IMG/VR virus record: IMGVR_UViG_3300033064_000047
Span: 1-22,194 of that record
Source: a virus
Length of the DNA: 22,194 nt
Reading direction: 5' to 3' (one strand)
Within the stretch, counting starts at the first letter, position 1. The number at the start of each line of letters is the position of its first letter. The notes under the pieces are model-generated. The model was not told the origin of the DNA. It worked only from the letters and a program-made list of their open reading frames with translations, and did no database searches. This document shows positions 1-20,071 of the stretch, one piece after another. Position numbers and translations under genes: made by a program.

Positions 1-459
1 GCGCTGGCTTCCTGCGGTTGAGCCAAAAAAGAAAGAAAGCACTTGGTCTGCCTTAGCAGACAGATACCCAATCAGCGTGCCAGCCATCACAGAATCAATT
101 GTGGAAAACCCCGCCAGCGTTGAAATAACCACGCCGACAAACGAGGTGACTACGATGATTGCCAACGAAGGCACGAGATAGGATTTGGTGGCAACTTGCA
201 TATCGCGTGCAGATTTGCGGTCTGTCACGGCCAGTTGCTCAAAGTCAAGGTTCATCGACTGGGCTTGCTTCTTCAATTCCAGTTCAGCAAGCTGGATGGA
301 CGCCACCTGCTCGGCGGTCAGCTTATTGCTGTTGAGGACATCCTGCACTTCCTCTGGAGCAATATTCAAGGTTTTTGATACGGCAGCCAAGGCCATACCA
401 GCCAACGGGCCACCAAGAGCCGTAACGACTGTTGGTGCAATTGTTTTAAGCCATTCCAT
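1..459 (-). CDS. Holin of the 3-TM (gene-transfer-agent holin) type, C-terminus cut by the window edge
   Basis: Predicted to permeabilise the inner membrane at the end of infection. It reads open for 153 codons from ATG at 459 to base 1 without a stop, so it is truncated by the window, not broken. The N-terminus (MEWLKTIAPTVVTALGGPLA) is a hydrophobic Gly/Ala-rich segment. An amphipathic charged helix follows (about residues 35-92, with the conserved-looking DRKSARDMQ at 80-88), then two membrane segments at about 95-117 and 122-147. This layout resembles the family named 'holin of 3TMs, for gene-transfer release' (PF11351), recalled by eye rather than searched. Its ATG overlaps the TGA of the upstream frameshifted gene (ATGA), so translation is probably coupled to the frameshifted product. 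Endolysin would be expected further left, outside the window. Confidence 0.8.
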   Translation of the reverse strand, partial: MEWLKTIAPTVVTALGGPLAGMALAAVSKTLNIAPEEVQDVLNSNKLTAEQVASIQLAELELKKQAQSMNLDFEQLAVTDRKSARDMQVATKSYLVPSLAIIVVTSFVGVVISTLAGFSTIDSVMAGTLIGYLSAKADQVLSFFFGSTAGSQR

Positions 460-949
460 CAGAAACCCCTATTTGTGATAACGTGAAATGCAATACTCAC
501 CAGCGGCACAACAATAGCAGATGAGCCGGAAATCCAGAGTGTATTCATAATAATTGCTACCTTCACTTCTTTCTCCTTCTGCTTGCGCTCCGCTTCTTCT
601 CTTTCCAGCATGTTGCGTTCCTTTGTCAGCCTAGTTCGCTCTGACATCATCTCTTCCCACACTGGCGCGTTGCCTGAGTAAAAGAGTATGTCCTTCAATT
701 CCTTCTCATGTTCTCTCAGCGCCTTAGATGCCAGTGCAATCTGGAGTGCTTCAGAACTGATTTGTGCATTCGTCTTTCCAATACTAGCAATCCGCGCTTT
801 ACTGCTTGCTAGGTGAACTGTGTCCGCTGCTTGATAAAAACTGCTGAATTCTTTATATAAACTGTGGATATCCTTACCAAGAGCGACTGCTTTTTTATAC
901 CGGCTACCGCACCTTGGGCAAGGGCAAAAGCTGTAAATGGGTCAATCAT
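459..949 (-). CDS. Phage membrane-anchored protein made by a candidate -1 frameshift (163 aa)
   Basis: The ATG at 949 has a strong Shine-Dalgarno (AGGAG, 5 nt before the ATG). The zero frame starts MIDPFTAFALAQGAVAGIKK and reaches a TAG at 809-811 after only 46 residues. At 890-896 the zero frame reads ATA AAA AAG, the slippery heptamer A AAA AAG of E. coli dnaX. Slipping back one base continues as AVALGKDIHSLYKEF and stays open to the TGA at 459-461, giving 20 + 143 = 163 residues. The -1 frame has no ATG before 698. The fused protein has a helical N-terminal half, a charged coiled-coil-like stretch (RTRLTKERNMLEREEAERKQ) and a C-terminal membrane segment. It resembles a family I recall in marine and freshwater phages whose members start MIDP and run through an IKK motif; function unknown. 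It sits just before the holin, so a lysis role is possible. A missing A in the homopolymer is the main alternative. Confidence 0.75.
890..896 (-). promoter_or_regulatory. Candidate -1 ribosomal frameshift site, A AAA AAG
   Basis: Read on the minus strand the heptamer is A AAA AAG in the zero frame of the gene starting at 949, with codons ATA AAA AAG. The same heptamer drives efficient -1 frameshifting in E. coli dnaX. An SD-like AAGGTG lies at 910-915, 13 nt upstream, a position where such elements can stimulate slippage. No strong downstream hairpin is obvious by eye. The coding potential switches frame exactly here. Confidence 0.65.
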
Positions 950-7262: not shown

Positions 7263-7985
7263 TTATGCTAAGCTAACGCCTTGCACTGGCTGTAACATTC
7301 TATTTACCGGGCTGTTGTAGTTCAAATAATTTGACAACCCGCTATTAATCGCGTTGTAAGCGCCCATGTAGCCAGACGCGCGGGCGTTGGCCGCACCCAT
7401 GTAGCCCTCAGCAGTAGCGTTTGCGCCCGCCATGCCATAGCCGCCTATCGCGCTGGCATTTTGAGCGCCAGCAGCCCCAAGTTGTTGGGATGTGCTTTGG
7501 CCCATGCCGGTCAACGATTGCAACGGGCCAAGACGCGCTTGGCGTTCAGCTTGGTAGCGGTTGAATGCGTTGGTGTACTCTTGCGAACCCATTTCTTGGC
7601 CAAAGCGTGTAGCGGCTTTCAACGCGCCGCCCGAGATCAATCCGCCGCGTGCAGCCGCCGAACGCTCCAACGCCTTTTGGCCTTCTGACAGCCGAAACGC
7701 ATAACCTGGGTCGGCTTGAAATTGATCTTGTCCAAATTGTGTGTACTTAGACGCTTGCACTAACTCAGGCAAGGCATTGACGCCAACATCGTAAAACGGT
7801 TGCTGACGTTTTACATTTTCTTCGTACTGCTTTTGCTGCAAGTCTGACGCATAACGAGATGCAGCAGATACCGTTTCCGCAGAACGTTCAGCCGCTTCTG
7901 CTTGTGTGTTTGCGGCTTTATCGGCAGCGTACGCGCCAACTAAGGCGCTCCCTCCAATTGCTACTGCTGTGTATACTGCTGACAT
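7263..7985 (-). CDS. DNA-ejection/internal virion protein, P22 gp7-like (240 aa)
   Basis: First of three ejection-type proteins. Its length is near that of P22 gp7 (about 229 aa). The N-terminus carries a hydrophobic Gly/Ala segment (AVAIGGSALVGAYAADKAAN), followed by Ala/Glu/Gln-rich helices. The central motif DPGYAFRLSEGQKALERSAA followed by RGGLISGGALKA and GSQEYTNAFNRYQ is one I recall in many podovirus internal proteins. The C-terminal third is Gly/Ala/Ser/Asn-rich with repeated GYMGA units (near 193-208). It overlaps the end of the upstream SET-domain gene by 25 bases, so the two are translationally linked. Confidence 0.78.
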   Translation of the reverse strand: MSAVYTAVAIGGSALVGAYAADKAANTQAEAAERSAETVSAASRYASDLQQKQYEENVKRQQPFYDVGVNALPELVQASKYTQFGQDQFQADPGYAFRLSEGQKALERSAAARGGLISGGALKAATRFGQEMGSQEYTNAFNRYQAERQARLGPLQSLTGMGQSTSQQLGAAGAQNASAIGGYGMAGANATAEGYMGAANARASGYMGAYNAINSGLSNYLNYNSPVNRMLQPVQGVSLA

Positions 7986-8848
7986 AATGCTTCCTTAAAT
8001 TTAACGCCAGACAATGCAAGTGCTTGACGGTAATCAATTGTGACTTCGGTTCCCATGCTGCCGCCTTTGCAACCTTCTATGTCAGCCAACGCGACCAGAT
8101 CAATATCACCATTTGCCAGCAAAACCATTTTGGCATTTGGGTGCGCGGAGTGATTTGTATAGCGCCCTGCTTGAGAACGCTTGCCATTTATTCTAGCAGG
8201 GCAGACTATTTGACCGGCCTTAACCGGCGCGGTTACAAATAGCCCCTTACCTTCAATTGGAGAGATGGCAACCCTTGTAAGGGGGCTGTCAACCCAAGCA
8301 AAATCCGTTTCGTTCTCAGACTGCTGGCGGGCGACTTCATGCGGAATGCCGCAATCAGCAAGCAAGTTCAAATAGTCTTCGCGGTCAAACAACCGAGAAA
8401 CGCTCTCTACCGCAAACTTGCTTGCTTGGTCATCGTGCCAATCCTCTGTCTTTTCAACGAATAGCGTCTCTACAGCATCAGCATCTTTGAGGTCTGTTGG
8501 GTAGATGTTTTGCCAAACCATGTCTTCCATGACGTAGCCAATCTTCCTGCCCGCTTTGCCTGTAAAGATGACGGGTGCGGAAAGTATCTGCGTGGTTCCG
8601 TCGTCATTGGCAATCATCACCTTGCCGCGCAGCATCACATTGAGATGCTCAAATCGTTGCTTATGGCCTATTGCCAATGTACCGGCGGGCATAAAAACTT
8701 CGCGGATGCAGACACCAGGCCCAAAGTGATGCACCACTGAACATTCAGCTTGCGGCATTTGCATCAAAGTTTTTTCGGGTTCATCTAACGCAAGCAACTC
8801 ACGCAACGCTATTGCGCCGATGTTTTCTTGTACCGCTAGATCGCTCAT
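7961..8848 (-). CDS. Cupin-like plus SET-domain protein, candidate protein-lysine methyltransferase (295 aa)
   Basis: The C-terminal half carries the SET-domain signatures in order: GKGLFVT (G200-G202, cofactor-loop type G-x-G), the pseudoknot motif RYTNHSAHPN at 229-238 (canonical R-x-x-N-H-S-x-x-P-N), and EVTIDY at 268-273 ending in the expected catalytic tyrosine. These are the S-adenosylmethionine and lysine-binding elements of SET enzymes. No post-SET cysteine cluster is present. The N-terminal ~130 residues look like a beta-barrel of cupin type (GHKQRFEHLNVMLRGKVMIA, with His62 and His68). It starts at ATG 8848 (weak GGA site) and overlaps the gp7-like gene at its end. It occupies the position of P22 gene 14, between tail and ejection genes. 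The substrate is unknown: a virion protein or a host protein are both possible. Confidence 0.8.
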   Translation of the reverse strand: MSDLAVQENIGAIALRELLALDEPEKTLMQMPQAECSVVHHFGPGVCIREVFMPAGTLAIGHKQRFEHLNVMLRGKVMIANDDGTTQILSAPVIFTGKAGRKIGYVMEDMVWQNIYPTDLKDADAVETLFVEKTEDWHDDQASKFAVESVSRLFDREDYLNLLADCGIPHEVARQQSENETDFAWVDSPLTRVAISPIEGKGLFVTAPVKAGQIVCPARINGKRSQAGRYTNHSAHPNAKMVLLANGDIDLVALADIEGCKGGSMGTEVTIDYRQALALSGVKFKEALCQQYTQQ

Positions 8849-16556: not shown

Positions 16557-16919
16557 TTATGCCAAAAAGCGTAGTTTATACAGGGTTCTCAGATAAATTT
16601 CGATAATGTTGTCAATCAACTGCTGGAGCGAAGAGTCAGTTTTATCACACACCTCATACCGAGCAGCTTCAATTTCAGCCAACGAATCCTCTAAAAACTC
16701 AATGACGTTGCTGGTCTTCTTTGCTGAGTGCAAGGTGATTGGGCCAATCAAGCCATGACGGCCTTGGTAGGCTTCGGCAAAATCATCCGCCGCGCCAACG
16801 ATGCGCTCGTAAAAAATATTCAGCGCCTTGTGCTTGCTAAAGCTGCGCGTGTTCAGGTGAACGCTATGCGTCACATCACGGGCTAAGAACAGCAAGCCTA
16901 AAAAATCAGCGGGTTTCAT
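16557..16919 (-). CDS. Dps/ferritin-like helical protein after the portal (120 aa; DUF5856-like)
   Basis: The gene starts by ATGA overlap with the portal stop, with GGAG 8 bases upstream. It is predicted all-helical, in a possible four-helix layout: helices about 3-30, 31-52, 68-88 and 92-118. His18, His30, Asp45 and Glu49 have exactly the spacing (12, 15, 4) of the E. coli Dps ferroxidase ligands H51, H63, D78 and E82. The fifth ligand Asp67 is Asn34 here, and the local sequences (HSVHLNTRSFSKH; ADDFAE) also fit. The overall look, with 'HKALN-FYE' and a C-terminal LYKLRFLA, is that of an uncharacterised phage family I associate with DUF5856. It is shorter than Dps (about 160 aa). Iron binding is inference; a structural or DNA-associated role is an alternative. 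Confidence 0.75.
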   Translation of the reverse strand: MKPADFLGLLFLARDVTHSVHLNTRSFSKHKALNIFYERIVGAADDFAEAYQGRHGLIGPITLHSAKKTSNVIEFLEDSLAEIEAARYEVCDKTDSSLQQLIDNIIEIYLRTLYKLRFLA

Positions 16920-19389: not shown

Positions 19390-19818
19390 TTACACATTCC
19401 TTGGTAAAAATTGACCGTTGTTTGCTTTGCGCGCTAACGTGTTCACTATGTTTGGGTGCAGCCGTGCGTGTTCAATTGTTTTCATAACGCGCAAATTTTC
19501 AACGCGATTATCACCGTGAACTCCGTTAATGTGATCAACTTGTTCTCCATGCTCTAGCGGTTTAATAAATGCGTCAGCAACAAGACGATGAACCAATTTT
19601 TGTTTACCTGGAAGATCACGAGAGCCACCGTTTCGCAAGTACACCTCAATGTAAGGTCGTTGGCGGCCATTGTCAATTTTAACGCGCAACGCCATCATAC
19701 GCTCAGGCACGGGGACTGTACAATTACTTTTACCTTTTCTGACGCGTGCCAACGACTTGACGCGGCCAAACGTACTCACTTGGTAGCGCTCTTCGTAGCC
19801 ACGAATATCGGCCCACAT
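19390..19818 (-). CDS. HNH homing endonuclease with NUMOD4 motif (142 aa)
   Basis: A free-standing DNA endonuclease that spreads its own gene. The start chosen is ATG 19818 (MWADIRGYEERYQVSTFGRV), one base after the TGA of the preceding gene; the frame is open further upstream but only inside that gene. Residues 1-25 are a NUMOD4 DNA-binding motif (W-x-x-I-x-G-Y-E-x-x-Y-x-V-S-x-x-G-R-V-K-S-L). The HNH core follows at about 77-121: LVHRLVADAFI, VDHINGVHGDNRVENLRV (catalytic His96 region, Asn104, Asn108) and a final IEHARLH. It is inserted neatly between two small late genes, with one-base junctions on both sides. Confidence 0.88.
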   Translation of the reverse strand: MWADIRGYEERYQVSTFGRVKSLARVRKGKSNCTVPVPERMMALRVKIDNGRQRPYIEVYLRNGGSRDLPGKQKLVHRLVADAFIKPLEHGEQVDHINGVHGDNRVENLRVMKTIEHARLHPNIVNTLARKANNGQFLPRNV

Positions 19819-19819
19819 T

Positions 19820-20071
19820 TCAACATTTCCATCGTTGCATTGCTGCTTTTGCACGGCTGCCCTTTTCAGATTTTTCTGCGATAGGAGCCATCCTAGCACA
19901 AAATGAATCCTTGCGACCCTGATCTGCTTTGGTCTTGGGGTTGGGTGCTGGCGCTTTGAGGTTGGAGCCAGTGGCCGCGTTGTACTTCTCGCGGCCCTTG
20001 GCCGTCAGACCAGCACCTTTAGATGTTGGCAGCTTCTCGCCGCGTCCGACACTGAGAGACACTTTTTTCAT
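19820..20071 (-). CDS. Small basic phage protein (83 aa), DUF6321-like
   Basis: ATG 20071 directly abuts the TAA of the large terminase (TAAATG). The product begins MKKVSLSVGRGEKLPTSKGA, has a GGLTAKG-type motif (GLTAKGREKYNAATGSNLKA) and ends with SFCARM at about 56-61 and a terminal RWKC. The KSFCARM...RKWKC ending is the hallmark I recall for DUF6321 proteins in podoviruses, often next to terminase or portal. The two cysteines (57 and 83) may bind metal or form a disulphide. Strongly basic, so nucleic-acid contact is likely; function unknown. Confidence 0.82.
   Translation of the reverse strand: MKKVSLSVGRGEKLPTSKGAGLTAKGREKYNAATGSNLKAPAPNPKTKADQGRKDSFCARMAPIAEKSEKGSRAKAAMQRWKC

Follow-up and report, generated by a model that had tools for sequence, protein, structure and literature searches.

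How is a gene to be read when its start codon opens one reading frame and most of its coding sequence lies in another? The question is raised by a locus on the minus strand of the window (the whole stretch of viral DNA that was analysed, 22,194 nucleotides), where the frame of an ATG at 949 closes after 46 codons and the -1 frame stays open far beyond it. A first-pass annotation, made from the letters alone, had proposed that ribosomes pass from one frame to the other on a slippery heptamer, and all of its coordinates (ATG 949, 46 codons, -1 frame from 941 to 459 with a TTG at 698, junction at 890-896) were reproduced. We conclude that the locus, which belongs to a P22-like podovirus, is very probably a true case of programmed -1 ribosomal frameshifting; the slippage itself and its efficiency we infer from comparative sequence data. 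The features on which the argument turns are the following.

459..949, minus strand: frameshift gene, encoding a predicted 163-aa fused protein by way of a -1 shift
809..949, minus strand: 0-frame product of 46 codons, stop TAG at 811-809
459..941, minus strand: open stretch in the -1 frame, ending at TGA 461-459; its first ordinary start is TTG 698
890..896, minus strand: slippery heptamer A_AAA_AAG, in codons ATA AAA AAG (898-890), invariant in 86 of 86 relatives
885..889, minus strand: spacer of 5 nt between heptamer and stem
877..884, minus strand: 5' arm of the downstream stem, GCTCTTGG
826..834, minus strand: 3' arm of the downstream stem, TCAAG-c-AGC, with a bulged C at 829
876-870 paired with 841-835, minus strand: weaker inner extension of the stem
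1..459, minus strand: next gene, a membrane protein, whose ATG at 459 overlaps the stop TGA 461-459

The heptamer A AAA AAG at 896-890 has the correct X_XXY_YYZ phase relative to the 0 frame, and joining the frames at ATA AAA AAG (898-890) yields the 163-aa protein. The AGGAG that the annotation saw before ATG 949 is indeed present on the minus strand here, but it is not a general property of the gene: only 3 of the 86 relatives that share the heptamer have it within the 12 bases upstream, and in most relatives the start codon overlaps the stop of the upstream gene in its place.

Conservation and selection across the two frames

A tblastn search of viral contigs with the joined protein gave 406 related stretches, and among the 80 best matches the majority cover residues 1-163 over 488 bases, against 489 expected, so that the same -1 offset must be present in those relatives. 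The tblastn matches were then pooled with those of a DNA pattern scan blind to the N-terminus, giving, after removal of duplicates, 113 distinct relatives: 86 carry ATAAAAAAG and need a shift, two (L001 and L067) lack it, and 25 are single-frame. In all 86, which come from more than 50 metagenome datasets, ATAAAAAAG stands in slippage phase and the codons ATA AAA AAG are fixed, while synonymous sites before the heptamer vary (Pro4 is CCA, CCG, CCC or CCT and Ala14 is GCT, GCG or GCC). The fraction of ATA among isoleucine codons is 0.29 in these genes, and that of AAA among lysine codons 0.25. Judging by these counts, the heptamer is conserved far beyond chance, and homologues do keep it at the same codon, as the annotation had asked, throughout the frameshift clade (86 of 86). 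The annotation had also held that homologues in one continuous frame would speak against a frameshift; such homologues occur, but they are confined to the outside of the clade and the heptamer is likewise absent from them, which indicates a clade-specific acquisition of frameshifting and not an artefact.

Selection was compared in the two frames on either side of the heptamer. Codons 3-17, which precede it, have a dN/dS of 0.087 when read in the 0 frame, compared with 5.6 in the -1 frame. For codons 21-46, which follow it, the -1 frame gives 0.043 and the 0 frame about 2.0. The -1 frame remains constrained over codons 47-84 (0.071), upstream of any start that could be used in that frame. By this measure, purifying selection changes frame exactly at the heptamer.

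These values bear on two explanations that dispense with a frameshift. According to the first, an ordinary single-frame gene has been split, either because sequencing or assembly dropped an A or through decay into a pseudogene, as might be suspected from the distant homologues, isolated phages included, which are single-frame. Exactly six A in the same phase are, however, found in 86 distinct sequences, and the recurrence of the same break across more than 50 datasets rules out a sequencing slip; strong purifying selection acts on either side of the heptamer, each side in its own frame, and the covarying stem and conserved 0-frame stop described below are equally hard to reconcile with an error or with decay. 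We therefore give this explanation almost no credence. The second supposes two separate genes and no frameshift, with ATG 949 starting a 46-aa peptide and TTG 698 a 79-aa protein. A possible start does exist in each frame, but codons 21-84 of the -1 frame precede TTG 698 and nevertheless show dN/dS of 0.04-0.07, the same codons align with the single-frame homologues, and the tail of the 46-aa peptide is unconserved, making two independent genes just as hard to credit.

The fate of ribosomes that do not shift appears to be under selection as well. All 86 members of the frameshift clade have a TAG in the 0 frame at codon 47, whereas 2 of the 27 other relatives do. Since CTA and TTA together make up only about a fifth of the leucine codons in these genes, this difference suggests that prompt termination of unshifted ribosomes has been selected. 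The peptide thus released is conserved over its first 20 residues only, which are common to the long form, and its tail differs between relatives: past the heptamer it counts 1 aa in 25 of the 86, which have a TAG at codon 22, and 26 aa in the other 61. The annotation had envisaged a 46-aa product alongside the 163-aa one, and as a functional protein we find little to recommend it, with a tail that is unconserved (dN/dS about 2) and that 25 of the 86 relatives do without, stopping after 21 aa.

The downstream stem and the proposed mechanism

Folds of single sequences had first suggested a stem whose core of 8 pairs begins 5 nt after the heptamer. All 8 pairs are formed in 84 of the 86 relatives with the heptamer, in 1 of the 27 without it and, when the codons of the window's protein are randomised synonymously, in 3.5% of cases. 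One of these pairs joins the third bases of Ala23 and Ala41, which are C-G in 45 relatives and T-A in 41, with no mixed combination. On a maximum-likelihood tree built without the Ala23 and Ala41 third-position columns, the state of this pair changes at least 6 times, always jointly. A test on independent pairs found 5 of 5 concerted (sign test p 0.06), a number of pairs with which the sign test is unable to reach p 0.05. Among the 2415 variable third-position pairs in the gene, codons 23 and 41 provide the sole fully Watson-Crick two-state pair. At another pair, L109 and L127 replace T-A by G-C through a double change, Leu24 from CTT to TTG and Gln40 from CAA to Ala GCG, in which a neighbouring pair is broken.

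Further, synonymous variation dips most over codons 21-41, where the stem-loop lies. Since this dip is also present in the relatives whose 0 frame is closed at codon 21, it points to a constraint on the RNA and not to a second protein. Measures of folding are less telling: measured against synonymous randomisation, minimum free energies are just mildly unusual (mean z -0.8, with -0.55 in the in-frame sisters), and a consensus fold tested by shuffling columns is weak, so that the structural case rests on covariation. Upstream stimulators resembling a Shine-Dalgarno sequence are an auxiliary and not an obligatory part of -1 signals. We found none that is conserved here, and over the 20 nt upstream the in-frame sisters pair with the anti-Shine-Dalgarno at least as well.

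We also observed that in the loop and 3' arm, codons 29-41 (about 866-828 of the window, minus strand), the ratio of observed to expected synonymous variation is about 0.3-0.6, lower than the 8 core pairs alone account for. A pseudoknot or some other RNA contact at these codons is possible.

The arrangement of heptamer and stem also bears on whether it is the ribosome that shifts. RNA polymerase could instead slip on the A-run, so that some mRNAs would gain an extra A and be translated by an unshifted ribosome. Runs of A are a known basis of transcriptional slippage, but the runs cited are longer than 7 A (PMC3711429) and the one here has only six. What is invariant, moreover, is a phased heptamer ending in G and followed 5 nt on by a covarying stem, as in ribosomal signals, and we consider slippage of the polymerase very improbable.

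We therefore retain programmed -1 ribosomal frameshifting, as the annotation had proposed, for which the invariant heptamer, the covarying stem, the switch of the selected frame and the conserved 0-frame stop all argue. Translation would begin at ATG 949 with MIDPFTAFALAQGAVAGIKK; on A_AAA_AAG the two lysine tRNAs would slip back by one base, with the stem-loop 5 nt downstream pausing the ribosome and aiding the slip. The fraction that slips would make the 163-aa protein, and ribosomes that do not slip would end at the conserved in-frame UAG by codon 47 or, in 25 of 86 relatives, right after codon 21. Since homologues elsewhere are the same protein in one frame, it is most likely the 163-aa form that constitutes the main product; if so, the frameshift most likely serves to cap its dose relative to its neighbours.

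Origin of the frame break

The tree was rooted with distant single-frame outgroups. The 86 relatives with the heptamer, together with L001 and L067, are separated in the tree from the 25 single-frame sisters by a branch with modest support (83). The phages of these sisters show at most 64% identity and have no slip site, and the distant homologues, in Limnohabitans phage DC31, Puniceispirillum phage HMO-2011, Roseobacter phages CRP-4 and CRP-13 and genomes from Manatee Spring, are all single-frame too. The simplest reading of this tree is that mandatory frameshifting would have been gained once, in a formerly ordinary gene.

L001 (2988-3477) and L067 (210-699), which come from different datasets, are nested within the clade beside L109 and L127 (support 98) and form its exception. 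At the site of the heptamer they read ATC AAA AAG GCC, so that the heptamer is gone and the frame is restored, but one extra base at codon 5 (ATG ATT GAT CCT TTT CGT TGC) breaks the frame of the ATG again. The upstream gene has lost one A as well. A DNA pattern search for further frame breaks at codon 5 yielded L001 and L067 as the only true relatives. The sequence UUU_CGU contained in the altered codons is the +1 shift site of influenza PA-X (PMC3498833). This raises the tentative and rather doubtful idea that the frame break is itself selected, and that this lineage may have swapped a -1 shift for a +1 shift on UUU_CGU and so kept expression restricted. A plainer alternative is a weak TTG start that overlaps the upstream stop (TTGA) and would give a slightly different N-terminus. 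As L001 and L067 represent one event, they offer a hint only that the frame break is selected.

The protein, its neighbours and known systems

Searched against PHROG profiles, the fused protein has a single confident match, phrog_32327, of unknown function (E 2.9e-11, residues 1-138 aligned to positions 1-130 of 152), and none to a lysis family. It is predicted to be helical, with a hydrophobic N-terminal helix, a highly charged, coiled-coil-like stretch at 100-130 and, close to the C-terminus, a membrane segment that the hydropathy profile places at about 133-157. No Pfam family scored above cut-off for the single-frame homologues tested. For L390, an in-frame homologue, AlphaFold gives an all-helical model of low confidence (mean pLDDT 65), the credible Foldseek matches are to uncharacterised phage proteins only, and a profile search of the PDB gave nothing credible, so that no function can be derived from structure. 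The single-frame homologues within phrog_32327 (HMO-2011, CRP-4/13 and DC31) belong to the same family, with an N-terminus of the form MIDPxTAFA..., helical character, a C-terminal membrane segment and a late or lysis neighbourhood; they differ in having one continuous frame and neither heptamer nor stem.

The window belongs to a P22-like podovirus, as its portal, coat and stabilisation proteins show. The annotation had placed the frameshift gene directly before the holin. This holds in one relative, L006, where a holin (phrog_3427) comes next, then two small genes and then an M15 peptidase endolysin, but in the window itself the neighbour at 1-459 matches phrog_1544 alone, of unknown function, and no Pfam family. 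Several annotated homologues have peptidase or lysozyme genes downstream too. Given this gene order and the single C-terminal membrane segment, the likeliest site of action of the 163-aa protein is the membrane, as part of the lysis module or next to it, a suggestion that we make with low confidence.

The gene that follows the frameshift gene (1-459 in the window, 3491-4003 in L006) was seen to vary among relatives, beginning with MEWLK..., MIPII... or MSEE..., which indicates that the frameshift gene has kept its place through repeated exchanges of its neighbour on the lysis side.

The neighbourhood bears on a further explanation, in which the frameshift is real and its purpose is to provide two products, as in dnaX tau/gamma: either a short amphipathic peptide would regulate the long membrane protein, or a switch would set the time of lysis by coupling termination to the holin, as the annotation had suggested. 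In its favour, residues 1-20 are conserved and hydrophobic, none of the 86 has lost the TAG at codon 47, and in most relatives the start of the next gene overlaps the stop of the long form, an overlap with a downstream lysis-module gene that recalls the coat-lysis termination coupling of MS2 and GA. The tail of the short product is unconserved, though, and ends at codon 21 in 25 of 86, and the coupling itself fares poorly: the next gene differs from those of MS2 and GA in having a strong ribosome-binding site of its own (AGGGG at 470-466, 6 bases before its start), so that it may be translated independently of the frameshift; its identity varies among relatives; and the in-frame sisters L390 and L367 show the same stop-start overlap. 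We thus consider a two-product purpose unlikely, and favour restricted synthesis of the 163-aa protein.

Three other genes of the window, all on the minus strand, deserve mention. An ORF of 295 aa at 7961-8848 has a C-terminus that matches the SET domain (PF00856) exactly at cut-off, with E 1.6e-4, and an N-terminal half that looks cupin-like by eye; a SET-like protein is unusual in the late region of a podovirus. A free-standing NUMOD4/HNH endonuclease (PF07463, PF13392), likely a homing endonuclease, is encoded at 19390-19899 between the terminase and portal genes. Finally, adjoining the portal gene, 16557-16919 encodes a 120-aa protein that matches DUF5856, of unknown function, with E 2.9e-19.

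The closest parallel for the signal is Escherichia coli dnaX (tau/gamma), where A_AAA_AAG is an established shift site with a downstream stem (PMC5009743; PMC3711429). The heptamer and its phase are the same, a stem-loop follows, and the shift occurs between AAA and AAG lysine codons. The genes are unrelated, however, and the phage gene is without a conserved upstream Shine-Dalgarno-like stimulator. Whereas the dnaX shift ends the short form, that of the phage would open the long one, and the unshifted phage product is just 21-46 aa long. Because the tail of this product is unconserved, the analogy covers the signal and not two conserved products. The lambda-type G/GT tail-assembly chaperones offer another conserved -1 frameshift among the late genes of tailed phages. 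They are not homologous, though; the present gene belongs to a P22-like podovirus, precedes lysis genes and not a tape-measure gene, and shifts at codon 20, whereas in G/GT a complete first protein has almost been made when the shift occurs.

Frameshifts in phages are used in tail-chaperone and capsid genes. In the open-access literature searched, we found no frameshift reported in this protein family and no conserved frameshift in a lysis-module, holin or antiholin gene of a double-stranded DNA phage. The family consists mostly of uncultured phages, from freshwater going by the isolated relatives, and a scan of genome contigs revealed no relative in a host or as a prophage copy. Automatic annotation is likely to split the protein in all these phages. 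Conserved frameshift genes of phages outside tails and capsids form a short list, to which this gene would add a seemingly unreported family. Its evolutionary record is unusually clear, comprising in-frame sisters, a frameshift clade and a sub-lineage in which the site is gone and the frame remains broken, and the system would permit a direct test of how an ordinary gene comes to depend on mandatory frameshifting, with dose limitation set against a regulatory short peptide beside the lysis genes.
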